A stretch of 23,673 bases of DNA, from assembly GCA_029265335.1 (NCBI GenBank), contig JAJUJN010000001.1, positions 1 to 23,673 of the forward strand, written 5' to 3'. The stretch comes from Alcaligenaceae bacterium. Lineage in GTDB: Bacteria; Pseudomonadota; Gammaproteobacteria; Burkholderiales; Burkholderiaceae_B. The notes below the pieces were generated by a model. That model was not told the origin of the DNA and searched no databases. It saw only the letters and a program-made list of their open reading frames with translations. Within the stretch, counting starts at the first letter, position 1. Each line of letters begins with the position of its first letter. Shown one piece after another: positions 1,409 to 20,995 of the stretch. The translations under genes were made by a program, and so were the position numbers.

Positions 1409-2268
1409 CAGCCGTACCGCCCGGTAATGTAGTCTTCGGTTTGCTTTTTGCCCGGGGTCACGAAGAGCGTTTTGGTGTCGTTGAATTCGATCAGCTCGCC
1501 CAGGTACATATAGGCCGTGAAATCCGACACGCGGGCAGCCTGCTGCATGTTGTGGGTAACAATCACGATCGTGAAATTCTCTTTGAGCTCCACCATGAGC
1601 TGCTCGATCTTGGCGGTGGAGATCGGGTCGAGCGCCGACGTGGGCTCGTCGAGCAACAGCACCTCGGGCTCGATCGCAATGGCCCGGGCGATCACCAGTC
1701 GCTGTTGCTGACCGCCCGACAGGCCAAACGCGTTTTTCTTGAGCCGGTCTTTTACCTCGTCCCAGAGCGCCACACGGCGCAGGGAACTTTCCACGGCTTC
1801 GTCGAGCAGCGCCCGGTCTTTGACCCCTTGCAGACGCAAGCCATAGGCCACGTTGTCGTAGATCGACTTGGGAAAGGGGTTGGGCTTCTGAAACACCATG
1901 CCCACTTTGCGCCGCAGCTCCGACACGTCTACGTCGGGATCATAGATATTCTGGCCGTAAAGACGAATGCTGCCCTCGACGCGGCAGTCGTCCACCAGGT
2001 CGTTCATGCGGTTGAAGCAGCGCAGCAGCGTGGATTTGCCGCAGCCCGATGGGCCGATGAATGCCGTGACCCTTTCGGTAGGAATGGTCATGCTCACCGA
2101 TCTCAGGGCCTGCGTCTCGCCGTAGAACAAATCAAGATCGTTCACCGTCAGGGCAATATCGAGCTCGCTGAGCGATTCGGCAGGCTGCGGGAACTCGCCG
2201 TTGGCGCCAGGCGCCGAACGTGTCGCCCCCGCTGTGGGTTGGGTTGACGGAGAGCTGAGGGTAGTCAT
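1408..2268 (-). CDS. pstB: Phosphate ABC transporter ATP-binding protein PstB
   Basis: PstB is the cytoplasmic ATPase that powers the PstSCAB high-affinity phosphate importer. In the 286-residue form I see Walker [10 protein letters not shown] (72-80), the Q-loop in FQKPNPFP (Gln about 127), the ABC signature LSGGQ (183-187), Walker B VLLLDEP (203-209) and the H-loop His (about 239). The C-terminal YITGRYG is typical of PstB. The N-terminal 30 or so residues are a Ser/Thr/Pro-rich extension before the ABC fold. I chose ATG 2268 because GAGG lies about ten bases upstream. A TTG at 2292, overlapping the pstA stop as TTGA, would add eight residues and remains possible. The stop forms TGATG with the next gene. 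A phoU gene often follows pstB, but none does here. Confidence 0.97.
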
Positions 2269-2288
2269 GGCAGGTTGCCTCGTTTGAA

Positions 2289-3947
2289 TCAATCGCTCTC
2301 GACGCGATATTTTTCGCGGAGATGGTTGCGGATAAGGATCGCAGAAAGGTTCAGCACCACAATCAACAGCACGAGAATCAGCGCCGTGGCGTAAACCAAG
2401 GCTTCGGCCGCTTCAGCGTGCGGGCTCTGAAAGCCCACGTCGTAGATGTGGAAACCCAAATGCATGATCTTGCGATCCAGATGGATATAGGGAAAGTTGC
2501 CGTCGATCGGCAGCGACGGCGCCAGCTTCACCACGCCCACCAGCATGAGCGGCGCCACTTCGCCCGCGGCCCGGGCAATCGCCAGAATCAGGCCCGTCAT
2601 CATGGCTGGCGTGGCCAGCGGCACCACCACCTTCCACAGGGTTTCACTCTTGGTGGCGCCGAGCGCCAGCGAGCCCTGACGAATGGTGGACGGAATGCGG
2701 GCCAGGCCTTCTTCGGTAGACACAATCACCACCGGCAAGGTGAGCAGCGCCAGCGTGAGCGAGGCCCAGAACAGCCCTGGCGTGCCGAAGGTGGGCGACG
2801 GCAAGGCCTCGGGATAGAACAGGCGGTCGATGCTGCCCCCCAGCACGTACACAAAAAAGCCGAGCCCGAACACACCAAACACGATCGACGGCACGCCCGC
2901 CAGGTTGTAGACCGAGATTCGTATGGCTTTGAGCAGCGGCCCCTGACGCGCGTACTCGCGCAGATAGATGGCCGCCAGCACACCGAAAGGTGTCACGATG
3001 ACCGACATCACCAGCACCATCACCACCGTGCCAAAAATCGCCGGAAAAATACCGCCCTCGGTATTGGCCTCGCGGGGGTAGCCCAGAATGAAATCGATGA
3101 AGGCTTCGCCGTAAAAGGCCACTTTCTGCCACACCGACATGGCGTTGGGCTGCCAGGCCTTCACGATCAGGTTCAAGGGCACGGTGACTTCTTCGCCACC
3201 CACGGTGCGCATCACCAGGCTGTCGCGCTGACTGTCGGCCACCACCGCGTTCAGCCGTTGTTGCACCTCTTGGTAGGTTTCGTCGAGCCCGGCACGTCGC
3301 TCGGCCAGTGATGCCTCGAGGTCGGCGTTGAGCTCTCCGTTGAGCTCGGCGCGCCGTCGCTCCAAACGCAGAGTGTCGATCTGGTGGTTGATGCCCCCGA
3401 TCACGTGGCGCTCGATCTGTTCGATTTCGTCGTGCAGGCGGTTGCTGCGATCGAGCCGGCGCTGCAATTCGGGCCACAGCGCCTCGCCTTCGGCCACCAC
3501 TTGGTCGTTTTCCAGCAATCGCACCGGGGTACCGAAGAGGTTGCCCCACTGGCGCCTTTCCAACACCGTGGCCTCGGCCGGATACCGAAAATCGCTTAAA
3601 AAATCATCGACAAAGTAAGCAAAATCGCGATTATTGACGTCGCGGTTGGCCAGCTTGAACAAATGGCGCGTCACCAACAGCTGCTCTTCGGGCAGCGGCA
3701 CGCCGGCCTCGCGCAGGTTCTGCGCCGTGAGCGTCTCGCTCTTGCGCAGCTGCCCCAGAATCACCTGCTCGGCCTGGCCGGGCATGGCGTAGTCGGCCTC
3801 GATCAGGCTGTGCGGCCAAAAGTGACCAAAGCCCCGCACCAGAATCAGCGCCAGCAGGCCAAACACCATGATGATGCTGATGCTGATCGCACCAGCATTC
3901 AACCACACCCAGGGCGCACCGCTTTTCCACCAATTACCAAACTTCAT
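2289..3947 (-). CDS. pstA: Phosphate ABC transporter permease PstA, long form with a coiled-coil insert
   Basis: PstA is an inner-membrane permease subunit of the phosphate importer. At 552 residues it is much longer than the roughly 300 residues of E. coli PstA. TM1 is about 15-38. Residues about 40-270 form an extra soluble region, expected to be periplasmic. It includes a strongly charged, probably coiled-coil stretch at about 157-240 (for example [20 protein letters not shown]). The canonical permease domain follows at about 300-545. Its EAA-type cytoplasmic loop ([20 protein letters not shown], about 422-441) contacts PstB. The start ATG is clear. The gene begins 18 bases after the pstC stop, with only a weak ribosome binding site. 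The enlarged form is familiar from several gammaproteobacteria and fits the equally enlarged PstC next door. Confidence 0.95.
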
Positions 3948-3965
3948 CGTTTTGCCCAGGTCGTG

Positions 3966-6266
3966 TTAGAGAGAGGCGTAGCGCTTGCGCAAGCGCTGGC
4001 GCACTACCTCGGCGAGCGTGTTCACCGCGAAAGTAAAGGCCAGCAGCACCAGGGCCGAAAGGAACAGCACCCGGAAATGCGTGGAGCCCACCGCTGTTTC
4101 CGGCAGCTCCACCGCGACGTTGGCCGCCAGCGTGCGCATACCCTCAAAAATGTTGAAATTCACCACGGGGCTGTTGCCCGAGGCCATCAGCACGATCATG
4201 GTTTCGCCCACCGCCCGGCCCAGGCCTATCATCACCGCCGAGAAGATGCCCGGACTGGCAGTCAGCAACACCACCCCCATCACCGTCTGCCAGCGAGTGG
4301 CGCCCAGCGCAAGCGAACCTTGCGACAAATGCTTGGGCACACTGAACACCGCATCTTCGGCGATCGAGAAAATGGTGGGAATGACCGCAAAGCCCATGGC
4401 CATCCCTACGATCAGGGCATTGCGCTGGTTGTAGGCCACGCCCATGTCGGTGAGCCATTGCCGCATGGAGCCGTCGAAGAAGGTCACCTCTACCCAGGGG
4501 CTGGCGGCCACTGTGACCCAACCCAGCAGAATGATCACCGGCAGCAAGAGCGCGGCTTCCCAGCCGGCCGACACGCGCTGGCGCAGCGGCTTGGGCGCCA
4601 CATGCCACAGCCAGCCCGCCAGCAAGATACCCAGAGGGATAAGCAGTGCTCCCACCACCAGCACCGGCAGATGATTTTCGATGAATGGCGCCAACCAGAT
4701 GCCGGCCAAAAAGCCCAGAATCACGGTGGGCAGCGCTTCCATCAATTCGATGGACGGCTTCACCAGACGTCGCATCGGCGCCGACATGAAATAGGCGGTA
4801 TAAATGGCTCCCATAATGGCCAGGGGCATCGCCATGAGCATCGCGAAGAAAGCGGCTTTAAGGGTGCCCACCGTCAGCGGCACCAGGCTGAACTTGGATT
4901 CAAAAGCGTCGTCGCTCGAAGACGATTGCCAGACCCATTCAGGTTGGTTGCGGCCTTCGTACCAAACTTTGCCCCACAGCGCAGTCAACGAAGTTTGCGG
5001 GTGAGGGTTGTCGATGGCCACGCGACGCAGGCCCTCCTCGCCCGCGGCCGCCACCAGGGCAAGCTCGTCGATGGGCGAGATGGCCACGGCGGTAATGGGC
5101 GAGTTGGCAGCCTTCAACATCTTCAACGACTGGCTGGATGTCGCGTAGTGCAGGCCCAGGTTGCCGCTCGCGTCGCCAGTCAGAAAGCCCTTGCGAGCAT
5201 ATTCCGGTGCGATCACCGTGATGGCGTCGGGGTGTGAGGAAAATTCGCGAATGAAAGTGATGTGACTGTCGCCCGTGGCTTCGTCGCGCACCAGAAACCA
5301 CTCGCGCAGGCTGCCGTCGCTGCCGCCCACGATCAAGCCACGCGAACCCACCAGGAATTCGGCCTGAGTCACTTCCGCGTGGCCGTCCACCAGCCTCACA
5401 CTCTCGATCAGGCGGGCTTCGGCCGGGTTCACAATATCGATGTTGTGCAGCGTGCCGGATTCATCCAAAACCAACAGATTGCGCAAGGTTTCGTTGATCA
5501 GAATCTTGCGCACCGACCCTTCGATGGGCGGCAGACGATAGTCATCACGGGAAATCTGCAAGTCGCCAGTGAGCAGGTTGGAGCGCGTGGTGAACACGGC
5601 CATCACCACTTCGCCATCCTCGTTGCCGGCGGCCACGATATAACCACCCCGACCATCCATGATGGCCAAGGCGCTGTACTCGGCTCCATCGTCACCGGCA
5701 ATGGCCAGCGGCTCTTCACCCAGAGGCCAGGCCAACTGCGGCGTGATCAAACGTTCGCCGTCGGGATACGAAAGCTCCCAATCGAGGCGCACCGGCAGCA
5801 CTGTGCCGTCGGAAAACCCATAAACAAACAGCCGCTTTCGACTCTCGGAATGGCCAAAGCCGACGATTTCCACATCGTCGCCCATCGGAATTCTGGATTG
5901 CGAGCGAACGGCGCCGGAATTGGCATCGAAGAATGTGATGCCGCCGGCGTCGTCGAAACGCGCACCCAGGGTTTCGTATCGATCCAGCACCAGATGCAGC
6001 GGCTTCGCGTGTGCGTCTGGGCCCGCCTGCACCACGTATTGTCCATCCAATTCCATCGAGACCGGCTTGAGCAGGGGGATGGTTTCGTAGAACAGGTAAA
6101 GGAAGATGAGCGCCAGGGCGAAGATGACACCCAGGCCACCTGCTGCTACGCCCAGCCGCGAAGCACCATCTCGCATCTTGCGTCGCCGACGCAGGCGCTC
6201 ACGCTGCTCGGGACCGGGCAGCAGGGTCGATTGACCGCGATCGACGGAGGATGAAGCATGAGCCAT
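3966..6266 (-). CDS. pstC: Phosphate ABC transporter permease PstC, long form with a propeller-like insert
   Basis: PstC pairs with PstA to form the phosphate channel in the inner membrane. This protein has 766 residues, against about 320 in E. coli. A basic N-terminus (RERLRRRRK) precedes TM1 (about 38-60). Residues about 70-440 are an additional soluble region. Its repeats resemble WD/beta-propeller blades, for example FLVGSRGLIVGGSDGSLREW and SPITAVAISPIDELALVAAA. The permease domain occupies about 462-766. Its coupling loop ([20 protein letters not shown]) precedes GLGRAVGETM. The insert follows TM1 and should face the periplasm. The ATG at 6266 is the natural start, with only a loosely placed AAGAG upstream. 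A large stem-loop lies between this gene and pstS. Confidence 0.95.
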   Translation of the reverse strand: MAHASSSVDRGQSTLLPGPEQRERLRRRRKMRDGASRLGVAAGGLGVIFALALIFLYLFYETIPLLKPVSMELDGQYVVQAGPDAHAKPLHLVLDRYETLGARFDDAGGITFFDANSGAVRSQSRIPMGDDVEIVGFGHSESRKRLFVYGFSDGTVLPVRLDWELSYPDGERLITPQLAWPLGEEPLAIAGDDGAEYSALAIMDGRGGYIVAAGNEDGEVVMAVFTTRSNLLTGDLQISRDDYRLPPIEGSVRKILINETLRNLLVLDESGTLHNIDIVNPAEARLIESVRLVDGHAEVTQAEFLVGSRGLIVGGSDGSLREWFLVRDEATGDSHITFIREFSSHPDAITVIAPEYARKGFLTGDASGNLGLHYATSSQSLKMLKAANSPITAVAISPIDELALVAAAGEEGLRRVAIDNPHPQTSLTALWGKVWYEGRNQPEWVWQSSSSDDAFESKFSLVPLTVGTLKAAFFAMLMAMPLAIMGAIYTAYFMSAPMRRLVKPSIELMEALPTVILGFLAGIWLAPFIENHLPVLVVGALLIPLGILLAGWLWHVAPKPLRQRVSAGWEAALLLPVIILLGWVTVAASPWVEVTFFDGSMRQWLTDMGVAYNQRNALIVGMAMGFAVIPTIFSIAEDAVFSVPKHLSQGSLALGATRWQTVMGVVLLTASPGIFSAVMIGLGRAVGETMIVLMASGNSPVVNFNIFEGMRTLAANVAVELPETAVGSTHFRVLFLSALVLLAFTFAVNTLAEVVRQRLRKRYASL

Positions 6267-6332
6267 GCGGAGAACTCTTGTTCAGTGCCGGCAAGCGGCA
6301 GAATCCATTCAAATAGCAGGTGCGACAACGAG

Positions 6333-6401
6333 GCCAGGGCGCCCATCGAGACACTCCGCGGCGGTGAAACCGCGGAGGTTGTCACGATGGGTGGCCCTGG
6401 C
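6333..6401 (-). promoter_or_regulatory. Large stem-loop between pstS and pstC
   Basis: This is a nested inverted repeat. The outer arm GCCAGGG (6333-6339) pairs with 6395-6401, CCCATCG (6342-6348) pairs with 6385-6391, and a perfect 8-bp inner stem CTCCGCGG (6354-6361) pairs with 6370-6377 around an 8-base loop. No T-tract follows on the minus strand, so it is not a canonical terminator. It most resembles an intercistronic hairpin that stabilises pstS mRNA or partly reduces expression of the downstream permease genes. Confidence 0.75.
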
Positions 6402-6425
6402 GGACACCCATAAGAGAGCTTGAGG

Positions 6426-7400
6426 TCAGTTCAGACCTTTCTCATTGCGGAAGCGCTCAGCCACACTGGCGGGAAGGGTGACGAAGCCATCACGGTTCAC
6501 CACTTCCTGGCCTTCCTTGGACAACACCAGGCGGAAGAACTCGCCCTCGAGCGGATTCCAGCCTTTGTTGGGGTCGGCGTTGGCGTAGACGAAGAGGAAG
6601 CGGGCAAGGGGATAGCTGCCATCGACAGCGTTCTCGCCAGTGGCTTCCACGAAGGGCTGGCCTTCTTCGCGAGCCAGCGGCACGACGCGAACGCCCGAGG
6701 TCTTGTAGCCGATACCGGAGTAACCGATACCGCCCAGGGTTTGCTCAACACCGCGCACCACGGCCGAGGAGCCGGGCTGCTCGTTCACGGTGGACTTGTA
6801 GTCGCCGCCGCACAGGGCGTTTTCTTTGAAGAACCCGTAGGTGCCCGAAACCGCGTTGCGACCGTAGATGGTGATGTCGCGATCGGCCCAGCTGCCGTCG
6901 AGACCGGCCTCACCCCAGTTGGTGATGTCGTTGGCATAGCCACAAGCACGGGTGGCCGAGAAGATAGCGTCGACCTGCGGCAAGCTGAGACCTTCAATGG
7001 GGTTGTCTTTGTTCACGTAGACGGCCAGCAGGTCGATGGCCACAGGCACCTCGGTGGGAGCGTAGCCGTAACGATCTTCGAACTCGCGAATTTCGGAGTC
7101 GCGCATGGCGCGGCTCATGGGTCCAAGGTTCGCGGTGCCTTCGGTAAGCGCGGGAGGCGCGGTGGAAGAACCGGCACCCTGGATCTGGATGTTGACGTTG
7201 GGGTAGAACTCGGCGAACTCTTCGGCCCACAGCGTCATGAGGTTATTGAGGGTATCGGAGCCGACCGAGGTCAAGTTGCCCGACACACCCGAGACAGTTT
7301 CGTACGACGGAAGGTTGGGATCCACCTGAGCGACGGCAGCGCCAGCGGCGATCCCGAATGTGGCGGCAACCGCAGCGATCAGAGGCTTCTTCAGCATCAT
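6426..7400 (-). CDS. pstS: Phosphate-binding periplasmic protein PstS
   Basis: PstS captures phosphate in the periplasm and delivers it to PstCAB. The 324-residue product has a Sec signal peptide ([16 protein letters not shown], cleaved near AAVAQ). Phosphate-contact motifs of the family are present: VGSDT (46-50), [11 protein letters not shown] (75-85), the Asp in [10 protein letters not shown] (about 123) and [12 protein letters not shown] (180-191). Two cysteines (about 153 and 197) could form a disulfide. I chose the first of two tandem ATG codons (7400-7398). AGGA lies nine bases upstream, and a signal peptide starts there directly. The frame is open for 30 more codons upstream, but that part does not look like a signal sequence. 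It is the first gene of the operon and sits behind an array of Pho boxes. Confidence 0.97.
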
Positions 7401-7493
7401 GTCCAGATTCCTATGTTTGGAGTGGCAAACACGAGTTGCGCCGCCTGGTTGCATGTGTTTGACATGCGGCACAACGTCGATGACCGCCATTTT

Positions 7494-9375: not shown

Positions 9376-11622
9376 ATGGCTCAACTTACGTGGCGGGCTG
9401 AGATCCACATGATGATGCATCTGTGCCGGAGCGCCTTGAGGGCAAGCGCCCTGGTGCTTTGCATGGCAAGCCTGACTGCCTCGGCCAGCACCGAGGTTCG
9501 GGTAGGCGTGCACCACAATCCGCCCAAGTTGATGCTCGACGCCAACGGTTGGCCCAGCGGAATTCTGGGCGACCTCCTGCAGGAAATGGCGCGCCAGAAC
9601 GAATGGACGCTCGTGAGCGTGCCCTGTTATTGGGAACAGTGCCTGGAGTCTTTGCAAGCCGGTCGTATCGACCTGGTTCCCGACGTCGCGTTCACTGCCG
9701 AGCGCGCCCAGCGTTTTCAGTTTCACCAACAGCCTGTGCTGCGAAGCTGGTCACAGCTCTATCGCCGGACCGATATCCCGCTGCGCAGCATTACCGATCT
9801 CGCCGGCAGGCGCGTTGCGGTCCTGGCCAACTCCACCCAGCAATTTGAACTGCAACAGATGCTGGCCGAGCTGGATATTTCAGCGGAGCTGGTGCCTGTA
9901 CGGGGTTACGACGAAGCGTTCGACATGGCCCGCCGCGGCACGGTCGACGCAGTCACCACCAACCGACATTACGGCGAACTCCACGCGGCAGCGGCCGAAC
10001 TCGAGCCCATGCCCTTCGTGTTTGAACCATCCAGGCTGTTCTTTGCCGCGGCACCGCAGGTTGACCCTGCATTGCTCGCTCAGATCGACGCCACACTCGC
10101 GCAATGGACCGAGCAGCCCGATTCCTATTATTACAGTGTTCTGCAAGCCTGGAGTCCCCTCGCAAAGCCAGCGGGAGCGCCACGCTGGCTGTGGCCCTTG
10201 CTGGGGGTGCTGGCACTGAGCTTGCTCGTGGTATTGGTGATGAGTTTCTGGCTGCGCCGCCAGATTCATAAAGGCCAAAGCGAACTCCGCCGTCTCAGTG
10301 CCGAGATTGCCGAGCAACAACGCGTGGTGCGCGACATGCAACCACTCGCCCAGCACGATCCGCTCACCCTCCTGCCCAACCGTCTTCAGTTCGAGGAGCA
10401 ACTCCGCCACTGCCTGGAATCGTTAGGCAGTCAGCCCGCTTCAGGCACTTTGCTGTTGATCAACCTCGACAACATGGCGATCCTCAACGAACAATTGGGT
10501 TATGCCTGCGGCGATCTGCGATTGCAGCAGGTTGCCCAGCGTCTGGTAGCAGGCGTGGCCCATAACCAATTCGTGGCCCGCGTTGGGGGCGACCAATTTG
10601 CGGTGCTGATTCCCGATCTGGGCGTGGCGCCGCAAGACGCAGCAGCCAGAGCCTCTTCGCTGGCGCGAGGTGTATTGCGCAACCTCTCGCAGCCGCACGA
10701 TTTGAATGGTCACCCGTGGCAAGGCACCGTAAGCATAGGCATCGTGTTGCTGGCCGACGCTCAGAACAGCGTCGATACCATCCTGCGCCACGCCGACTTC
10801 GCTTTGCTGCAGGCAAAAGCCGCGGGCGGAGACACCTTCCGGCTGTTCCACCCCGAAGTCTCGGCCATGCTCTCTGCGCGCAACGCGCTGGATACGGAGC
10901 TGCGGCAGGCCATTGAGCACGAACAATTTGTTCTGCATTACCAGCCCCAGGTAGACGTAAACAGAGAACTGACGGGCTACGAGGCCATGGTTCGCTGGCA
11001 ACATCCCAGCCGGGGCCTGTTGCTGCCTGTCCATTTCATCCCTTTTGCCGAAGCCTCTGAACACATACTTGCCCTCAACGACTGGGTGCTGCGCACCGCC
11101 TGCGCTCAGCTGGCCCAATGGGGTCAGTCGGCCGAATACAGCCACCTCACTCTGGCCGTGAACATAGGCGCCACCGAACTGCTGCGCCCCGATGGCGCCC
11201 AACAGATTCTGCAATGCCTGGCCGATGCCGGGGCCAACCCGAGCCGTCTTGAACTCGAGATCAACGAGACCGATATCATCGACGACGTCGACGCCACCGT
11301 GGCGCGCCTCCGTGAGCTACGTACCGCCGGAGTTCGCATCACTCTCGATGATTTCGGCGCGGACTACTCACCGCTCAACTATGTCACGCAATTGCCGATA
11401 GACCGGCTCAAGATCGATATGTCTTTGGTGCGCGACTTGCTGCACGATGCCAACGACGTGGCCATTGTCAGCACCATCATCTCGCTGGCCCACAGCCTGG
11501 ATCTCGAGGTCATCGCCGAAGGGGTGGAAAGCGAGGCGCAACGCGATATCCTTTACGAGTTGGGTTGCCGGCACTTTCAGGGGTACTGGTTTGGCCGGCC
11601 CGAACCCTGGCCCCCCACCTGA
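9376..11622 (+). CDS. Periplasmic-sensor c-di-GMP phosphodiesterase (SBP_bac_3 / degenerate GGDEF / EAL)
   Basis: The 748-residue inner-membrane protein has a signal/anchor at about 16-37 and an extracellular-solute-binding (family 3) sensor at about 40-250. A TM segment (about 271-293) and a short helical linker lead to a GGDEF domain (about 325-490) and an EAL domain (about 505-742). The GGDEF motif reads GGDQF (404-408), and the metal-binding DxD reads NLD. Cyclase activity is therefore probably lost, and the domain may be regulatory. The EAL site looks complete despite reading EAM (536-538): Asn596, Glu628, Glu631, Asp658-Asp659, Lys679, Glu715 and Gln735 are all in place. It should hydrolyse c-di-GMP in response to a periplasmic ligand. 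GAGGGG precedes the ATG at 9376, and a second ATG cluster at 9409 would start closer to the signal sequence. Confidence 0.92.
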   Translation: MAQLTWRAEIHMMMHLCRSALRASALVLCMASLTASASTEVRVGVHHNPPKLMLDANGWPSGILGDLLQEMARQNEWTLVSVPCYWEQCLESLQAGRIDLVPDVAFTAERAQRFQFHQQPVLRSWSQLYRRTDIPLRSITDLAGRRVAVLANSTQQFELQQMLAELDISAELVPVRGYDEAFDMARRGTVDAVTTNRHYGELHAAAAELEPMPFVFEPSRLFFAAAPQVDPALLAQIDATLAQWTEQPDSYYYSVLQAWSPLAKPAGAPRWLWPLLGVLALSLLVVLVMSFWLRRQIHKGQSELRRLSAEIAEQQRVVRDMQPLAQHDPLTLLPNRLQFEEQLRHCLESLGSQPASGTLLLINLDNMAILNEQLGYACGDLRLQQVAQRLVAGVAHNQFVARVGGDQFAVLIPDLGVAPQDAAARASSLARGVLRNLSQPHDLNGHPWQGTVSIGIVLLADAQNSVDTILRHADFALLQAKAAGGDTFRLFHPEVSAMLSARNALDTELRQAIEHEQFVLHYQPQVDVNRELTGYEAMVRWQHPSRGLLLPVHFIPFAEASEHILALNDWVLRTACAQLAQWGQSAEYSHLTLAVNIGATELLRPDGAQQILQCLADAGANPSRLELEINETDIIDDVDATVARLRELRTAGVRITLDDFGADYSPLNYVTQLPIDRLKIDMSLVRDLLHDANDVAIVSTIISLAHSLDLEVIAEGVESEAQRDILYELGCRHFQGYWFGRPEPWPPT

Positions 11623-14373: not shown

Positions 14374-14474
14374 GGGCGGCCACCTCAAAACTGCCATTCA
14401 CGATACGATCAGAAGCTTTGTGTATGCTGGCTCGCCGCCTGCGGCGGGCTGCGATGGGCATTAAGTGGCCGCCC
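14374..14474. promoter_or_regulatory. Structured intergenic region upstream of the unknown 484-residue protein
   Basis: A perfect 10-bp inverted repeat, GGGCGGCCAC (14374-14383) and GTGGCCGCCC (14465-14474), encloses about 81 bases. Inside it lies a compact hairpin with 8-bp arms (14431-14438 and 14441-14448; CTCGCCGC / GCGGCGGG with one G-U pair). No T-tract follows on either side. It ends 84 bases before the next start codon. It could be a leader structure for the downstream gene or the 3' end of the CitE-RidA transcript. Confidence 0.5.
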
Positions 14475-14558
14475 ACCCTGCTCGCCTTATCGTTTTCACA
14501 GCATTTCAGCCGTGTCAGCCGACGCGTGCGCGGCCACTTCAGAACAGGAGCTTGCAAT

Positions 14559-16013
14559 ATGATGGAATCCGCCCCTACGGCTTCGCTCGATAGCGCCATG
14601 CGTCGACGCGACACTTCGCTCACCACCGACCAAAAAGCTCTCCAGATCAACCTCGATAAGTTCAAATATGGGTCGATCGTGGAAATCGGTGCGGGCCAGG
14701 AAGTGGCTCGCCGCTTCTTCAAAGTGGGCGCCGCTGCGGGCACCATCGCCAAAACCATGTCAGCCTACGACATGGCGGTGAGCGACGACATCTATGGTCA
14801 TGTGGACCGCTACGTGAGCCGTGAGCGTCTGTTGCAGATGCTCGATCACGAGTTCACGCAAGTGGTGGATCGCCTCACCCACATCCGACCGCGCAACACC
14901 ACCTTCTTTGCCTACGCCGCCACGGTAACCGCCCGCAGCTACAAGCAGAAGAACGAGTGCCACGGCTGGATCGGCATCCGCCTGCAACTGCATCCAGGGG
15001 CGGCGCCCAGCGACATCATTCTGCATGTGCGCATGCTCGACAACGAAAATGCCCAGCAATCCGAAGCCCTGGGCATTCTCGGGGTGAACCTCATCCACAG
15101 CGCCTACTACCATCACGGGCAGCCCGAATGGATCATCGAAAGCCTGTCGGACGGGCTCGGCCACGATCGCATCGAGGTCGACCTCATCCACTTCAGCGGG
15201 CCTTATTTCGAAGAGGTCGAGAACCGGCTCATGAACCTGCACCTCATCCGGAGCTGGCTCACCCGTGCGGTGGTCTTCAACCCGAATGGTGAGGTGGTGG
15301 TGCCGGGCGAACTGCTCTACCGCAAACCGGTGCTGGTGATGCGTGGCAGCTTCAACCCCGTGACCAACGTAAACATCGACATGATGCATTCCGGCTTGCA
15401 TCAATACAGTCAGGTTTCGGCGGTGGAGCCGAGCGAGGTGGTGGCCCTGGCAGAAATCACCATCAACTCGCTGGTCAGCGGCGATAACGTGGATGGTGCG
15501 GATTTTCTGGCCCGCATGGACCTCCTCGCCACCCAGGGCTTCACGGTGATGATTTCCGACTACGTACGCTACTTCCGCCTGCGCGCCTACCTGAGGCGTT
15601 ACACGCAGAAGCCCATCGGCATCGTGCTGTCGGTGCGCGACTTCCAGTACCTCTTCAACCAGAAATACTACGACGGCCTGGAAGGTGGCATTCTGGAGGC
15701 GTTCGGCAAACTATTCCCCGACAACACTCATGTGTATGTGTACCCGGCCCGACCTCAGCAGGGTGATGAGCGCGAACTGATCACGCTCGACAACGTGAAG
15801 GTGCCCGATAACCTGGTTCACTTGCTCGCCCACCTGAAGGCCAACCGCAAGCTGCTCGCCATCGAACCCCACGACGACGAACATTTGCACATCGATTCGG
15901 GCGAGGTATTGGCGGCCCTGCGCCGCGGACGCGGCGCCTGGGAGCAGGCGGTGCCCGAAAACGTGGCCAAGACCATCATCGAGCGACGTTTGCTGGGGTT
16001 TGATACCGCCTGA
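14559..16013 (+). CDS. Conserved protein of unknown function (about 484 residues)
   Basis: I cannot assign a function. The product looks soluble, with no signal peptide or membrane segment. The N-terminal part has a striking block, IVEIGAGQEVARRFFKVGAA and then TIAKTMSAYDMAVSDDIYG (40-79). I recall such a block from a widespread uncharacterised family. Other blocks are ECHGWIGIRLQLHPG, SDIILHVRMLD, QSEALGILGVNLIHSAYYHH, ERIEVDL-type segments and KYYDGLEGGILEAFGKLFPD. A mid-protein VMRGSFNPVT superficially resembles the start of nucleotidyltransferases such as NadD, and I recall databases sometimes carrying that name. No HxGH or ISSTxxR-type motif supports it. AGGAG lies eight bases before the ATG at 14559, and an adjacent ATG at 14562 is an equal alternative. 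It is monocistronic and convergent with the next gene, 18 bases away. Confidence 0.85.
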   Translation: MMESAPTASLDSAMRRRDTSLTTDQKALQINLDKFKYGSIVEIGAGQEVARRFFKVGAAAGTIAKTMSAYDMAVSDDIYGHVDRYVSRERLLQMLDHEFTQVVDRLTHIRPRNTTFFAYAATVTARSYKQKNECHGWIGIRLQLHPGAAPSDIILHVRMLDNENAQQSEALGILGVNLIHSAYYHHGQPEWIIESLSDGLGHDRIEVDLIHFSGPYFEEVENRLMNLHLIRSWLTRAVVFNPNGEVVVPGELLYRKPVLVMRGSFNPVTNVNIDMMHSGLHQYSQVSAVEPSEVVALAEITINSLVSGDNVDGADFLARMDLLATQGFTVMISDYVRYFRLRAYLRRYTQKPIGIVLSVRDFQYLFNQKYYDGLEGGILEAFGKLFPDNTHVYVYPARPQQGDERELITLDNVKVPDNLVHLLAHLKANRKLLAIEPHDDEHLHIDSGEVLAALRRGRGAWEQAVPENVAKTIIERRLLGFDTA

Positions 16014-16031: not shown

Positions 16032-19004
16032 TCAATGGTAGCGATAGGGCGTGGCGGCGGGTAGGTCGATATCGCTGTCGATCTGCCCAAAGCCCACGCG
16101 GGTGGCCCGAGCCATGTGCTCGCGCGTGGCCGGGTCGGTGATGAAGTCGAGCGGCGAGGTGGCCGCCAGAATCCGTTCTGGCGCTACCGGCTCGCTGATC
16201 AGATACCCCTGCACGTAATCCACCCCCAGTTCGGCCAACAACTCCAGCGTGGCGTGGTCTTCTACCCATTCGGCAATGCTGCGCATGCCCAGATTGCGCG
16301 CCAGCTGCACGATCGCCTCGATGATGGCCACGTTGGCCGGATGATGGGTAATCGCCTGCACGAAGGAGCCGTCGATTTTGAGCGCATCCGCCGAGAGTTC
16401 CTTGATATAGAGGAAAGAGGTGTAGCCTGCCCCGAAGTCGTCGAGGGCAATGCGTGGACCGAACTGCCGGAGGTCTTCGATGAAGCGACGACTGTTGTCG
16501 ATATCGTGCAAGGCCACACCTTCGGTGATTTCGATGCAGAGCAAGTGCGCCACATCGCGAAAATCGCCGAGAATGCCGCAGACTTCTCTCAAGAAGCTTT
16601 CGTCGTTGAGCGAGGCGCCACTCAGGTTCACACAAACAAACCGGGTGCGGCTGAGCTGGGCTCGATTCGCTTGTATCCAATGCAGGGTGGTGCGCAGCAC
16701 CCATTTGTCGAGCGCCGCAATATTGCCGTTGGCCTCGGCCGCTGCCACCAGGGGGCCGGCGGCAATGACTTCGCCTTTGGGCCCGCGCATGCGCACCAGC
16801 ACTTCGAAATCCATGGAAGCATGCGGCGCGTGCAAGGACAGAATGGGCTGCATGAGCAAGAAAAGATCCTGCGTTTGAAAATTGCTACCCAGCGAGTTGA
16901 ACAGCTGCAGCTCGCGCTCGCGCTCGGCAAAAGCAGCAGCATTGCGCTCGTACACCGCGAGCCTGCCCGGCCGGCGCGCTTTGGCATCGCGGCAGGCGCG
17001 GTCGGCGGTGGCGATCACATCTTTGATGAGCAGCTCGGGGGTGACCTCTACCAGCCCCACCGACAGCAGCACCTGAAAAGCCTGGGTGCGCACCTGGAAA
17101 TGTCGGCCCACAATACTGTCGATCACCCGCTGGCAGCACACAATGGCATCGGCCATGGTCAGCCCGGGGAGCACCAGCAAGAATTCGTCGCCCCCAATGC
17201 GCCCTACCTGCAGCCCTTCGTGCAACGTAGCCTGGATGCGCTCACAGACCTGCCGCAGCACTTCATCGCCAGTATTGTGGCCGTAAAGGTCGTTGATGAG
17301 CTTGAAACGATCGAGATCCACATACGCCACGGCCAGGGTAGCGTGGGGCTGATCGCGGGTTTCTTCCAGGGCGCGTTTCAGTTCACGCTCGATCCCCCGA
17401 CGGTTGAGCACCCCCGTGAGCGAGTCGTAGTTGGCCAAATAGCGCAAGCGCTCGGTGAATTTCTGCCTTTCGGTGATGTCCTGCAGCGACCCTTCGATCC
17501 ACTCTCCCACGCGCGCGGCGCGCACCAAAAACCACACTGCGTCTTCGTTGTTGGCCTGGCACGAGACTTCGAACTCGATGTTGTCGTCGGCATCGGCCAG
17601 GCTCTGGAGCTTCTGCCAAGAGGCATCGTCGAACACCTCGGACCAGCGCGTGGCATGCAGCGGCGCGGTAGGCAGACCGGGCATCTGATGCATGGCGTTG
17701 TTGACTCGCAAGAACCGACCTTGCTCGTTAAGGGTAAACAGGCCCACGGGTGTTACCTGGTAGGTGCGCTCCAGCTCGGCCTGGGCGCGCCACCGCGTAC
17801 GCCGCTCTTGCCGCACCTGGTCGGCGAATGCAAAGGCTGCCATCAGGCTGGCCGCCAAGGCAGCCGTGACACTATTGAATGCCCCCACCAAAAACTGAAA
17901 GTCGAAGGCGGCGGCGATCACCTCGGACAGCGAGGCAAACAACACCAGGCCCAGCGCCGCCGAATACCAGATGATCGCGCGAGTGCGCAGCTGCAGCAGA
18001 CAGCGCAGCATGAACACCACGATGATGCTGGCGCCGATGGTGACTATCACCCACATCACCGGCAGAAACTGAGCAAAGGGCAGTGCTATGGCTGCCACCA
18101 GCAGCACCACGCCCAAGCGCTGTCCGAAGCGGATGGAACGATCGCCCAGCTGTTCGAGTTCCTTGGCGAACACCTGCCGAAACAGGGTGTAGGTCACGAT
18201 GTAATAGGCGCCGATGGTGATCTGGCGCACCATGTGCATCCAGTCGGGCGGGATGGTCCAACCCAGCCATTGGCTATCCCAGCCCATGGTGATGCCGCCC
18301 AGTCGCAGGTTGCCGATGAGCCACACGGCAAGCAAGGCGTATCGTGACTCCCGGTTGATGAGCGCGGTGAACAGGGCGAAAAGCGCCAGCATGACCAGCG
18401 CGCCTTCAAACAGCCCGGACCCCCACTGGAAGCGCTGGGTGGCTGGCGACAGGCTGGCCTCGGGCCACGAGGTGGCGGTGACCACTGCCGGACCGCTGTG
18501 CACCACGCGGCAAATGGCGCCGGCGCTGGTGGCCGGAACCACAAAACCGGCACGAAATGCGCTGACCGTTCCGGTGGTGGCCGCGCGGTTGCCGGCACCC
18601 AAAGGCGCCAGCGTGTCTGCGCGCCAGCAGTCGAGACTCTGCGCGTGTCGCGAAGGCAGCTCAAAAACCCGCGGCTCGCCGCCGGAGGGCTGCGACGGCA
18701 GAGCCACCCACACGGGTGACTCCGATAAACGGGTGTCGAAACGTGTGATCGCCGGCGCAATCGCCAGCTGCTCTTGCGCCTGCTCCGGCGACCACCCTGC
18801 GTTGTCGGGCTCGAGCAGCATGGGGATTGCGAGCGCGGGGGCGTGCTCGCGATCGACCGGGTTCGCTGCCTGGACCAGCACGAGCATCGTGAAGACCGCC
18901 AGGACGATCGGCACGACGTAATAGGAAAAGCGATTGAGCAAGAGGTCGATCAACGCACCCAACTGACTCGTGGCTTTGTTTGACGACTCCGGGTTTGCAA
19001 GCAT
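16032..19004 (-). CDS. Membrane-bound 7TM / PAS / GGDEF / EAL c-di-GMP enzyme
   Basis: The 990-residue protein has an N-terminal TM (about 29-46) and an extracytoplasmic domain (about 47-195). A seven-helix membrane region of the 7TMR-DISM kind (about 198-395) leads to a PAS-like domain (about 408-515). GGDEF (about 520-690) and EAL (about 700-950) follow. The cyclase motif is intact (GRIGGDEF, 601-608) with DLDRFKLINDLYGHNTGDE upstream. No RxxD inhibitory site precedes it. The EAL site is also complete: Glu734 (EVL), Asn793, Glu825/Glu828, Asp855-Asp856, Lys876, Glu912 and Gln932. It could therefore both make and break c-di-GMP, with direction set by the sensor. The start at 19004 is the only reasonable ATG, though its ribosome binding site is weak. 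It lies 105 bases downstream of the FeeM-like gene, beyond a strong hairpin. Confidence 0.93.
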   Translation of the reverse strand: MLANPESSNKATSQLGALIDLLLNRFSYYVVPIVLAVFTMLVLVQAANPVDREHAPALAIPMLLEPDNAGWSPEQAQEQLAIAPAITRFDTRLSESPVWVALPSQPSGGEPRVFELPSRHAQSLDCWRADTLAPLGAGNRAATTGTVSAFRAGFVVPATSAGAICRVVHSGPAVVTATSWPEASLSPATQRFQWGSGLFEGALVMLALFALFTALINRESRYALLAVWLIGNLRLGGITMGWDSQWLGWTIPPDWMHMVRQITIGAYYIVTYTLFRQVFAKELEQLGDRSIRFGQRLGVVLLVAAIALPFAQFLPVMWVIVTIGASIIVVFMLRCLLQLRTRAIIWYSAALGLVLFASLSEVIAAAFDFQFLVGAFNSVTAALAASLMAAFAFADQVRQERRTRWRAQAELERTYQVTPVGLFTLNEQGRFLRVNNAMHQMPGLPTAPLHATRWSEVFDDASWQKLQSLADADDNIEFEVSCQANNEDAVWFLVRAARVGEWIEGSLQDITERQKFTERLRYLANYDSLTGVLNRRGIERELKRALEETRDQPHATLAVAYVDLDRFKLINDLYGHNTGDEVLRQVCERIQATLHEGLQVGRIGGDEFLLVLPGLTMADAIVCCQRVIDSIVGRHFQVRTQAFQVLLSVGLVEVTPELLIKDVIATADRACRDAKARRPGRLAVYERNAAAFAERERELQLFNSLGSNFQTQDLFLLMQPILSLHAPHASMDFEVLVRMRGPKGEVIAAGPLVAAAEANGNIAALDKWVLRTTLHWIQANRAQLSRTRFVCVNLSGASLNDESFLREVCGILGDFRDVAHLLCIEITEGVALHDIDNSRRFIEDLRQFGPRIALDDFGAGYTSFLYIKELSADALKIDGSFVQAITHHPANVAIIEAIVQLARNLGMRSIAEWVEDHATLELLAELGVDYVQGYLISEPVAPERILAATSPLDFITDPATREHMARATRVGFGQIDSDIDLPAATPYRYH

Positions 19005-19051
19005 GTACGACCAACCAGTAGGCGCCCGAACCCATGGCGTGCGGGCAAACA

Positions 19052-19086
19052 GGCAACCGGCCGCTCCCCGGTGGCGGCCAGTTGCC
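19052..19086 (-). terminator. Strong stem-loop after the FeeM-like gene (possible terminator or attenuator)
   Basis: On the minus strand, GGCAACTGGCCGC (19086-19074) pairs with GCGGCCGGTTGCC (19064-19052) across all 13 positions, counting one G-U pair, around a 9-base loop. It begins 24 bases after the synthase stop and is followed by TGTTTG, only a weak T-run. It may end the synthase transcript partially, leaving some read-through into the c-di-GMP gene. Confidence 0.6.
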
Positions 19087-19109
19087 CCGAAAGTTACGCC
19101 TGGAACGCC

Positions 19110-19886
19110 TCATTCGGCGGCCATGGCCGGTTGCTGCGCTGCAACTGCAACCGGCGCGTGCAGCGGCCGCTGGCGCGACGGCGTGACGATGATGTCGGGG
19201 TGGTGCGTTTCGAACACAAACCGATACAAGGGGTGCCGGGCTGCGCGCCACCGCTCCTGAGCAGTGGCAACTTCGAACGACAACACACGATGCGGGATGT
19301 TACCCGCATGCTGCATGGGGATAAAGCCGACATCGGGAAAAACCTCCTCGAACAGCAGTGCTTCATATTGGCGATCGAGCGGTGAGCGCCCTGCAATCAC
19401 CATGTAGTCAATACCCGCTTGCACACAATACAGGTAGTAGGCCTTGAAGATGGCTGTCTTGGCCAAACGGCCCGCACTGCCCAGCGTCACGCCGAGGCGG
19501 GTGGCTTCTGCCAGGGCTTGCTGACCCAGCCATTCGGGCAGGGTCACGGATTGCTCCAGCCACAGGGGCTCGTGCGAATTGGTTTGAATGCGCATGGTGC
19601 CCAGGGGCTGGCCATCCAGTTTGGATTCGGCCAGCAGCACCGCTACCCCCGGCGCAAGGTCGTGGCTTTCGGGCGCCTGCAGTTTGTTGGCAAGTTCGGG
19701 CACGTGCCGCTGATACGCCGACTGCCGCAGGCTGATCGCCTTGTGCATGGCCTGGGTATCGGTGGCCACTCGAACCGTGAAGGGCAAGCGTTCAGTGGCC
19801 AGATGGCCGACTTCCATGGGGTGCGGAACGCTGGCACGAAAAGAAGCAGGAACGCGTGTGGACGAACGCAGAGCGTGAGCTTGCAT
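19110..19886 (-). CDS. FeeM/LuxI-like N-acyl synthase (GNAT-fold autoinducer-synthase-related)
   Basis: The 258-residue protein resembles N-acyl amino acid synthases of the FeeM type, which share the LuxI acyl-homoserine-lactone synthase fold and use acyl-ACP. A variable N-terminus of about 36 residues precedes PFTVRVATDTQAMHKAISLR, then RQSAYQRHVPEL (54-65). An acidic pair (Glu73/Asp76) may match the LuxI DxxD. LDGQPLGTMRI (90-100) resembles the GxxRL strand. ALAEATRLGV (124-133) carries the LuxI-like E-x-x-R signature (Glu127, Arg130). KTAIFKAYYLYCVQAGIDYMV (143-163) and a long acyl-pocket region follow. An Ala-rich C-terminal tail ends it. GGAG seven bases upstream fixes ATG 19886. It is divergent from a LuxR-type gene. 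The acyl-acceptor (amino acid or homoserine lactone) cannot be told, and a general GNAT role is the alternative. Confidence 0.75.
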   Translation of the reverse strand: MQAHALRSSTRVPASFRASVPHPMEVGHLATERLPFTVRVATDTQAMHKAISLRQSAYQRHVPELANKLQAPESHDLAPGVAVLLAESKLDGQPLGTMRIQTNSHEPLWLEQSVTLPEWLGQQALAEATRLGVTLGSAGRLAKTAIFKAYYLYCVQAGIDYMVIAGRSPLDRQYEALLFEEVFPDVGFIPMQHAGNIPHRVLSFEVATAQERWRAARHPLYRFVFETHHPDIIVTPSRQRPLHAPVAVAAQQPAMAAE

Positions 19887-20101
19887 GATGTAACTCCGGT
19901 AGGGTTGGGTGAGAAAAATCGGCATGGCGAACGCGCCGTAAATACCGACATTTGTAGATTCTCACGTACCGGGCATTTAGAAAACCACGCACGCGCCCCC
20001 GGAGGTTCAAATTTCCCACCGAGAAACGGGTTCAACACCAACCAATCCGCCCAGCGGCACAGTTTGTCTCCAGAGAAACACCCATTGCAAATCCACCTCG
20101 A
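19887..20101. promoter_or_regulatory. Divergent control region between the FeeM-like and LuxR-type genes
   Basis: This 215-base region holds promoters for both genes. I see TTTGTCTCCAGAGAAACA (20063-20080), an imperfect dyad centred on CA. GAGAAAC occurs twice (20021-20027 and 20073-20079), 52 bases apart. GGTTCAA also occurs twice (20004-20010 and 20029-20035). GGCGAACGCGCC (near 19926-19937) could form a small hairpin. No convincing -35/-10 pair was found on either strand. Confidence 0.45.
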
Positions 20102-20995
20102 ATGTTTACAGTAGTGAACGATCGTTTCAGTGAATCTTTTTGTGTCATGCAAGCCTTGCCTCTTCCTGCGGCAACCGAACGCGGCCCTGGCGCCCTCGAG
20201 CAGCTTCTGCCCGTGTTGGGCGAACCCGATTTCGGCCAGCAAAGCCTGCAGCTGCTCAGTCAGGTGTTACCGGTGGCGTCGTGGTCGGTGTATCAACTGA
20301 GCACCGCCGGCATGCACATGCATTTATCCGGCAGCATCGGCGTGCCCGATACCACCAACGAATGCTGGGATGCGTATCGCAGCGGTCTATACCGTCACGA
20401 CAGCAGCTTTCATCATCTGCGGCGCGCCAGCGCGGGCGCCCACCTGGCGCTGGGCCACTGGCGTGCTCAAGACATCGCTCGTGCGCATCGGGCCGGCATC
20501 TACGAACCGCACGGCATGTGCGAACGCGTATCCCTGGTGAATTTCGACCCCGACGGCCTGCTCGCCCTCAACCTCTATCGCCACGATCACCAACCCAGCA
20601 TCTCCGCCGGGGCTCTCCGCGATCTGCAAATGGTGGGTTATCTACTGTCTCTCTGCGTCAAACGCCACATCGAACTCAGCACGCGTTTGTCGGGCTCGGC
20701 GACGGCACACCATGCCAACCCCGAGTGTGCGCCACTCAGTTCGGCTGAGCAGCAGCTTCCAGACCCCAACGCGGCTCTGGTTCAGCGCCTGCAAGCCATG
20801 TGTCCCGCACTCACCGCGCGCGAGCTCGATGTTTGCTCTCGGCTGGCGCGCGGCCTTACCTACGATGGCATCGCGGCCGATCTCCAGATTTCGCCTACCA
20901 CGGCCAAAACCTACCGAAACCGGGCGTTCCAGCGCCTCGACATCCGGCATCGCAACGAGCTCTTTCGCCTGCTGTTGCAGCCTCCCACTCACTGA
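20102..20995 (+). CDS. LuxR-type HTH transcriptional regulator
   Basis: The 297-residue protein has a C-terminal LuxR/FixJ-type helix-turn-helix (about 233-292) reading CPALTARELDVCSRLARGLT, then GIAADLQISPTTAKTYRNRA. The order LTxRE, IAxxLxIS and TAKTYxNRxFxRL is diagnostic. The N-terminal region (about 30-190) is not an obvious AHL-binding domain of the LuxR/TraR kind, nor a phospho-receiver. It is rich in His, Trp and Tyr and may be a GAF-like ligand pocket. Two starts are possible. ATG 20102 gives 297 residues, and ATG 20147 gives 282 and places a DNA palindrome (20115-20129) in the promoter or leader instead of the coding sequence. Neither start has a strong ribosome binding site. Its divergence from an acyl synthase suggests it senses that product. 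Confidence 0.88.
   Translation: MFTVVNDRFSESFCVMQALPLPAATERGPGALEQLLPVLGEPDFGQQSLQLLSQVLPVASWSVYQLSTAGMHMHLSGSIGVPDTTNECWDAYRSGLYRHDSSFHHLRRASAGAHLALGHWRAQDIARAHRAGIYEPHGMCERVSLVNFDPDGLLALNLYRHDHQPSISAGALRDLQMVGYLLSLCVKRHIELSTRLSGSATAHHANPECAPLSSAEQQLPDPNAALVQRLQAMCPALTARELDVCSRLARGLTYDGIAADLQISPTTAKTYRNRAFQRLDIRHRNELFRLLLQPPTH
20115..20129. promoter_or_regulatory. Palindrome at the 5' end of the LuxR-type gene (lux-box-like candidate)
   Basis: TGAACGATCGTTTCA has a perfect core AACGATCGTT (20117-20126) and near-symmetric flanks (TGAA / TTTCA, one base short on the left). Its centre resembles the GATCG core of classical lux boxes. It lies inside the first codons if translation starts at 20102, or 18 bases upstream if it starts at 20147. 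Confidence 0.4.

Follow-up and report, generated by a model that had tools for sequence, protein, structure and literature searches.

A FeeM-like synthase gene and a membrane cyclic-di-GMP enzyme gene are conserved neighbours in Burkholderiales and may form a lipid-signalling module

Introduction

A FeeM-like synthase, a membrane enzyme of cyclic dimeric guanosine monophosphate (c-di-GMP) metabolism and a divergent LuxR-type regulator are encoded side by side in an Alcaligenaceae bacterium of the order Burkholderiales, which raises the question of which of these genes belong together and what passes between them. They lie on a 23,673-nucleotide (nt) stretch of DNA (assembly GCA_029265335.1, contig JAJUJN010000001.1, positions 1 to 23,673), hereafter called the window; the source assembly, designated G000, consists of 543 contigs, totals 2.65 Mb and is 89% complete. 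All three frames, including that of the enzyme with its 990 amino acids (aa), are open at the coordinates in Table 1. An earlier note, made from the letters of the sequence, had joined the three genes into a quorum-like circuit that would feed into c-di-GMP by a signal other than an N-acyl homoserine lactone (AHL). The analysis described here indicated that the synthase and the membrane enzyme are strictly paired, that the regulator is a local neighbour, and that the pair may constitute a two-gene module made up of a lipid-signal synthase and its cognate membrane c-di-GMP receptor, a reading that we hold tentatively and at slightly less than an even chance.

Results

The synthase and the membrane enzyme are conserved neighbours

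The proposed link between the synthase and c-di-GMP was strengthened by the genomic context, as the synthase and the enzyme with seven-transmembrane (7TM), PAS, GGDEF and EAL domains proved to be conserved neighbours. The partner adjoined the synthase at 13 of 13 named synthase loci. Among 300 genomes of the order, searched by a method that scores only the best few candidates per genome, the synthase was found in 16, and the same 16 strongly matched residues 1-420 of the enzyme (E 4e-24 or better); the other three matches to this part of the enzyme were weak (E 2.3e-5 or worse). In a sample of 151 genomes of the family, 13 had the synthase, with the partner adjacent in all 13. When both samples were pooled, the genes were adjacent in 27 of 28 synthase-bearing genomes, and in the remaining genome (G229) the synthase is cut by the end of one contig and the partner starts close to the end of a second, the pattern expected of a break between them. 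An alignment search of 229 genomes of the class for hosts beyond the order matched only the window's own genome.

The arrangement of the two genes was compared at 30 loci that contain both. They stood in tandem, synthase first, at 26 loci and were convergent at four, all of them named loci, and thus the link between the genes survives inversion. It also extends to plasmids: the synthase was matched in 13 plasmid or megaplasmid records from Paraburkholderia and Caballeronia, and the partner was adjacent in all five of these loci that were examined. Carriers of the pair include pBPHY01 of P. phymatum STM815 and a P. graminis plasmid typed as conjugative. In an all-against-all comparison of 32 neighbourhoods, only these two families recurred in most, together with the frames overlying them (shadow frames, judged from printed examples); every other family was present in 10 or fewer. 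As a control, the canonical synthases with the best PF21926 matches that could be given loci were compared with paired-type loci, with equal flanks of 1.5 kb. A sensor-half match was found at 0 of 30 canonical loci versus 29 of 29 paired-type loci, some of the latter coming from one genome.

The sporadic distribution of the synthase and the presence of the pair on plasmids would suit linked inheritance without shared function, in which the two genes merely travel together on mobile DNA. We consider this most improbable, as no other family accompanies the pair with comparable regularity, the adjacency outlasts both inversion and deep divergence (paired synthases are as little as 37% identical), and residue-level differences in the enzyme track the presence of the synthase, as described below.

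A GGDEF-EAL gene did lie near three of the 30 canonical loci (L079, L082 and L085), all in family f32. These loci were rejected as a precedent for the pair, since in two larger stretches the protein proved to be a soluble GGDEF-EAL protein of another make, encoded beside a topA-like gene and a biosynthetic cluster. Two f32 stretches (L208:3539-9117 and L209:3288-8835) encode what reads as an adenylyltransferase/nitroreductase-like fusion together with further enzymes, and resemble the N-acyl dehydrotyrosine clusters described in excerpts of PMC12479983.

The synthase resembles FeeM

The E-x-x-R signature seen in the earlier note is present as E127-A-T-R130, and the resemblance to FeeM was upheld by both profile and fold. 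The PF21926.2 profile matched the synthase at E 9.7e-6 with a score of 25.9 bits, slightly below the cut-off of 27; the protein database annotation, which uses PF21926.3, assigns PF21926 to the window protein (P0001), and a genome scan with PF21926.2 at E 0.001 did not list G000. Structure comparison gave the FeeM fold (GNAT) with 18% identity to 2g0b, and hhalign of the window's synthase clade against canonical synthases gave E 9e-5 and a probability of 59%. By our own count E127 matches chain position 96 of 2g0b, which we took as Glu95 of FeeM. Glu95 is the catalytic residue of FeeM, and the corresponding E103A change abolishes the activity of Nas354, according to excerpts of PMC4897644. The window's clade also has conserved residues of its own, namely R54, H61, R130 and H199-R200. 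When solved structures were searched by sequence, the synthase itself gave no match and its alignment gave two, both seemingly due to chance.

An AHL synthase identity was rejected, as none of 52 aligned members matched the AHL-synthase Pfam family at E 0.01 and known AHL synthases ranked under FeeM by fold; the window synthase likewise had no match to the AHL-synthase NCBIfam. Neither the window synthase nor the 52 aligned members carried a PilZ or other c-di-GMP-binding domain, PF21926 being the only domain found. A PilZ fusion was also rejected as the explanation of the 376-aa homologue P0006, in which the extra sequence is a repeated stretch of the synthase itself.

The reading frame proposed earlier for the synthase was retained, and its start was revised. 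The start at 19886 is the better one because GGAG lies 7 nt upstream and because an 81%-identical homologue (P0002) has the same start, which gives a protein of 258 aa instead of 271. In G611 and G631, which belong to one genus, the synthase is present as two tandem copies ahead of the partner (L197:5284-6965 and L200:4636-6316), and the duplicated frames overlap by 4 and 56 bases. Such copies possibly provide two signals for one receptor.

The partner combines a putatively sensory membrane half with c-di-GMP domains

The 7TM/PAS/GGDEF/EAL architecture claimed in the earlier note was confirmed and extended by a signal-anchor helix and a periplasmic beta-domain. In a predicted model of the 990-aa enzyme, a single N-terminal helix is followed by the beta-domain (residues 60-181), seven helices (residues 182-417) and the PAS, GGDEF and EAL domains. 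The mean predicted local distance difference test (pLDDT) score was 84.5 and the predicted template modelling (pTM) score was 0.47, and the arrangement of the domains is therefore unsure. The window enzyme matched PF07695 (7TMR-DISM_7TM) at E 3.4e-5 with 24.3 bits, below the cut-off of 29; all 50 aligned members matched this family at E 1 (best 7.8e-11), and PF07695.18 is annotated on many homologues in the protein database. A weak match to 7TMR-DISMED2 was obtained for three of the 50 members (best E 0.0069), and a search with the periplasmic beta-domain alone found nothing.

The catalytic residues of both GGDEF and EAL are intact in the window enzyme and invariant in the 50-row alignment. 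In the 40 synthase-linked copies, EAL was intact in all 40 and GGDEF in 34. No RxxD inhibitory site was seen before GGDEF when the window sequence was read for this motif. The nearest solved structures were those of the PAS-GGDEF-EAL protein PA0861 (31-32% identity), and a fold search with the whole model returned only PAS/GGDEF/EAL structures among the best 50 matches.

The sensor half diverges with the synthase

Distances between synthases correlated with distances between the partner enzymes (r 0.85), and the correlation was 0.83 after removal of the rpoB distance (14 genomes, p 0.0005). With the rpoB distance removed, the synthase correlated at 0.88 with residues 1-420 of the enzyme and at 0.71 with the output half (each p 0.0005). 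These comparisons included 14 of 18 genomes; G159 and G196 (no rpoB match), G026 (rpoB on two contigs) and G229 (split pair) were omitted, the G001 enzyme was represented by the longer of its open pieces, and the split into N- and C-terminal parts followed residue numbers, not aligned domains. Partial correlations with the synthase, each domain being taken given the other domains, were computed for 35 loci and were highest for 7TM (0.47), followed by the periplasmic domain (0.28), PAS (0.13), EAL (0.11) and GGDEF (0.09). This set omits duplicates (L052, L201 and L014), a split enzyme (L051), L067/L068, and one tandem synthase in each of L197 and L200.

The prominence of 7TM would also be expected from envelope feedback, in which the product would be a membrane aminolipid or surfactant made in large amounts and the enzyme would track the state of the cell's own envelope instead of a released signal. 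N-acyl amino acids of this type are biosurfactants, as stated in excerpts of PMC4897644. Envelope feedback by itself leaves the conserved periplasmic S-R-H and G-P residues unexplained, and we judge it quite unlikely.

A clade without the synthase has lost the sensor signature

Relatives of the enzyme were found in 60 of the 151 genomes of the family sample, far beyond the 13 with the synthase. Of the 47 family genomes with the enzyme and without the synthase, 31 were represented in the comparison (L163-L193). No divergent synthase was found beside these copies by BLAST or by the family profile, and a lysA-like gene, named by reading its sequence, was present in 29 of the 31 loci. Copies of this synthase-free, mostly lysA-linked kind are common in the window's family. 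A quick maximum-likelihood tree of 71 sensor halves, built without bootstrap, placed the 31 synthase-free copies in one clade with 99% support in the Shimodaira-Hasegawa-like approximate likelihood ratio test (SH-aLRT). The synthase label required one change on this tree, and 0 of 500 shuffles gave a number as low. Over the part of the sequence used for this tree, the enzymes of two genomes of the family, G011 and G568, exactly match the enzymes from Schauerella fraxinea (L003) and Achromobacter aestuarii (L002), respectively.

The catalytic residues of EAL were intact in 31 of 31 synthase-free copies. Median EAL identity was 0.66 within the synthase-free copies versus 0.64 within the 29 main synthase-linked rows, and periplasmic-domain identity was 0.28 versus 0.39. 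At a matched EAL identity of 0.60-0.65, periplasmic identity was 0.27 for synthase-free and 0.40 for linked copies. These comparisons omit 11 rows of a divergent synthase-linked clade, and the EAL-matched one also omits two duplicates; with the divergent clade included, the values for all rows were 0.34 for the periplasmic domain and 0.56 for EAL. Individual sensor residues followed the same division. E361 was kept in 39 of 40 linked copies versus 0 of 31 synthase-free copies, G171 in 39 of 40 versus 3 of 28, and R119-H120 in 36 of 39 versus 2 of 28, where the 40 linked rows include two pairs of identical rows as well as L068, which was counted as linked on the assumption that it belongs with the synthase of L067. 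From their sequences, the synthase-free copies look like phosphodiesterases that shed the sensor signature and, often, the cyclase. The loss of sensor residues where the synthase is absent, being one event, is suggestive and no proof.

Points against the module and the direction of flow

Several observations weigh against the reading of the pair as a signal synthase and its receptor. The raw correlations across the 35 loci were all high (7TM 0.93, PAS 0.88, EAL 0.88, GGDEF 0.85 and periplasmic domain 0.83), and in a restricted set of 25 loci the 7TM partial correlation (0.54) alone stood out, the periplasmic value (0.18) being close to that of GGDEF (0.16). Of the 42 paired synthases examined, 36 have E127 and six lack it, and it was missing in 2 of the 52 members of alignment A1. 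Because the pair stays where E127 is missing, some pairs may make no N-acyl amino acid at all. Among the partners of the six E127-less synthases, R119-H120 was altered in three (versus 0 of 33 others; Fisher 0.002) and the Cys pair was lost in four (versus 0 of 33; Fisher 0.0002), a link that comprises just two independent contrasts, too few for a tree test. In the synthase-free clade, the Cys pair was retained in 28 of 31 copies, and drift went beyond the sensor, with GGDEF intact in 13 of 31 copies versus 34 of 40 linked ones. Since this clade represents a single evolutionary change, the drift of its sensor could have come with some other shift in role. Among known proteins, 7TMR-DISMED2 domains are predicted to bind carbohydrates (excerpts of PMC8846402), and the fusions of an N-acyl amino acid synthase (NAS) to PilZ, Nas343 and Nas354, indicate that the c-di-GMP link of FeeM-type enzymes can run the opposite way (excerpts of PMC4897644).

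The E127-less paired synthases (L063-L067 and L009) have G, Q or Y at this position and retain the pair, and the GGDEF is degenerate in three partners of such synthases (L064, L066 and L068) as well.

The main rival, in view of the known synthase-PilZ fusions (PMC4897644) and the decay of GGDEF where the synthase is absent, is a reverse flow, in which the enzyme senses another cue, the c-di-GMP that it makes or removes controls the synthase, and the product is an effector such as a biosurfactant, an antibiotic or a membrane lipid. A reverse flow would likewise keep the pair together, and decay of GGDEF along with the sensor is what would be expected if the c-di-GMP of the partner served the synthase. 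The lack of a c-di-GMP-binding domain on the window synthase and its 52 aligned members argues against it, as does the finding that the synthase co-varies most with 7TM given the other domains, not with GGDEF or EAL, and more closely with residues 1-420 than with the output half. We regard reverse flow as unlikely, though it retains appreciable weight.

The LuxR-type regulator is a local neighbour

The regulator carries a C-terminal GerE helix-turn-helix (HTH), and, in agreement with the earlier note, no AHL-binding domain was recognised, as residues 1-230 matched no Pfam family even at E 10. The divergent arrangement was also verified, with 215 bp between the regulator and the synthase. The dyads described at the regulator's start are present but weak. 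Besides two long-range inverted repeats, they comprise a 10-bp palindrome, AACGATCGTT, at 20117-20126; by our own estimate, roughly every fifth stretch of this kind would contain some 10-bp palindrome, whatever its sequence. A search of 18900-20250 revealed no sigma-70-like promoter.

The co-occurrence of the three genes, put forward as a check, held for the synthase and the enzyme and failed for the regulator. Within loci L001-L068, relatives of the regulator were found in the window's own stretches and nowhere else, save for a weak match in L068 (E 0.037), and five plasmid loci gave no match at E 1e-5. Relatives were present in three others of 200 genomes of the order (G062, G155 and G192), none of them among the 16 that bear the synthase, and in 12 of 150 other genomes of the family sample, where the best matches were 32-38% identical. 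Four of those 12 also have the synthase (G001, G563, G589 and G611), but on other contigs.

A circuit in which the regulator serves as receptor for the product of the synthase and governs the operon would fit the divergent arrangement in the window and the presence of a 34-38% identical relative somewhere in four of the 12 other synthase-bearing genomes of the family. No relative adjoins the synthase in the other loci searched, however, and the regulator has no known ligand domain, so that such a circuit is very unlikely. Among the loci examined, the regulator stands beside the synthase only in this window; its place in the circuit was not borne out, and it was rejected as a part of the module on grounds of conservation. 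As a local neighbour, it might regulate the synthase in this particular lineage or have no such role.

Other features of the window

The features of the locus are listed in Table 1. Elsewhere in the window, positions 9376-11622 encode a second c-di-GMP enzyme, with the architecture SBP_bac_3-GGDEF-EAL, which has no relation to the synthase pair. At 14376-16013, convergent to the membrane c-di-GMP enzyme, lies a gene for a protein of about 545 aa that had no Pfam or NCBIfam match at E 0.01. A minus-strand run at 1408-7490 encodes an ATP-binding protein, two permease-like proteins and a phosphate-binding-like protein, and judged from the translations it looks like a pst phosphate transport operon.

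Table 1. Coordinates of the synthase, the membrane enzyme with its domains, and the regulator, numbered from the first letter of the window
Feature	Position	Strand	Basis or remark
FeeM-like N-acyl amino acid synthase gene, 258 aa	19110..19886	-	Longer frame from ATG 19925 gives 271 aa
Shine-Dalgarno GGAG, 7 nt before synthase ATG at 19886	19894..19897	-	Read from sequence
Synthase E127-A-T-R130 motif	19497..19508	-	E127 aligns with catalytic Glu of canonical N-acyl amino acid synthases
Membrane c-di-GMP enzyme (990 aa), candidate receptor	16032..19004	-	Domains, model, synthase adjacency in relatives
Enzyme periplasmic beta-domain, residues 60-181, proposed ligand-sensing part	18462..18827	-	Conserved S-R-H, G-P and Cys pair; model
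Enzyme 7TM bundle, residues 182-417, including E361	17754..18461	-	PF07695 match below cut-off, and model helices
Enzyme PAS domain, residues 418-512	17469..17753	-	Window protein scores under PAS cut-offs
Enzyme GGDEF domain, motif intact in window protein	16974..17435	-	
Enzyme EAL domain, EVLVR and other catalytic residues retained	16188..16886	-	
LuxR-type HTH regulator, divergent	20102..20995	+	Local neighbour, no conserved module part

Discussion

Because the pairing is so strict, the synthase may well make a signal that the enzyme senses. In the proposed mechanism, the FeeM-like synthase would move an acyl chain from acyl-ACP (acyl carrier protein) onto an amino acid or a similar amine, and the resulting amphiphilic N-acyl compound would partition into the membrane or the periplasm. 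The periplasmic beta-domain and the 7TM bundle of the neighbouring enzyme would sense this compound, which would shift the balance between synthesis by GGDEF and breakdown by EAL, and hence the level of c-di-GMP. What the data show are the genes, their folds and catalytic residues, the strict pairing, a correlated divergence of synthase and partner that is strongest for 7TM, and the loss of sensor residues in the synthase-free clade; the product, its binding by the enzyme and a signal running from product to c-di-GMP are inferences.

The parallel closest in logic is the system of RpfF, which synthesizes the Burkholderia diffusible signal factor (BDSF), and RpfR, its PAS-GGDEF-EAL receptor. The rpfF and rpfR genes are neighbours, and RpfF has a crotonase fold. 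As in that system, a synthase of a fatty-acyl signal would be joined to a GGDEF-EAL protein that reads the signal into c-di-GMP. In contrast, the window synthase has a GNAT fold and is FeeM-like, no RpfF-type enzyme; its partner sits in the membrane and would sense through its periplasmic and 7TM parts, whereas RpfR is a soluble PAS receptor with an FI domain; and the expected signal is an N-acyl amino acid instead of a cis-2 fatty acid. RpfR binds BDSF and also binds and restrains RpfF (excerpts of PMC6361424). By analogy, the module would work like RpfF/RpfR with different parts, without being a member of that family.

The other relevant systems each share one part with the pair. With FeeM and other N-acyl amino acid synthases, including Nas343 and Nas354, the synthase shares its fold, the alignment of the catalytic Glu, the chemistry expected with acyl-ACP and a connection to c-di-GMP, but its clade is remote, with conserved residues of its own, and its c-di-GMP partner is a separate membrane enzyme in place of a PilZ domain. 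A GNAT-fold synthase with E-x-x-R and a divergent LuxR-type HTH gene recall LuxI/LuxR, yet the synthase has no AHL-synthase match and the regulator has no autoinducer-binding domain and is not conserved. The partner resembles 7TMR-DISM c-di-GMP enzymes in its modelled periplasmic domain and 7TM bundle and in its GGDEF/EAL output; it differs from them in being paired with a dedicated synthase and in a periplasmic domain that matches 7TMR-DISMED2 weakly, in 3 of 50 members.

The individual components are of known kinds. Among the matches listed in searches of the open-access literature, no report of the synthase-enzyme pair was found, and the nearest work was that on NAS-PilZ fusions (PMC4897644). 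A broader conclusion, that the pair represents dedicated N-acyl-amino-acid signalling in which a 7TM protein is direct receptor and c-di-GMP enzyme in one and would alone relay a lipid-type autoinducer from the outside to the second messenger, widespread in Burkholderiales and present on some plasmids, is possible, though we would lean against it as it stands. If the signalling reading is true, the pair would, as far as could be found, give 7TM GGDEF-EAL sensors of this type their first assigned ligand, and lipid signalling would be coupled to biofilm control in a manner for which no report was found. The pair offers a testable case in soil- and plant-associated strains, with a built-in comparison in the synthase-free clade of the same enzyme.

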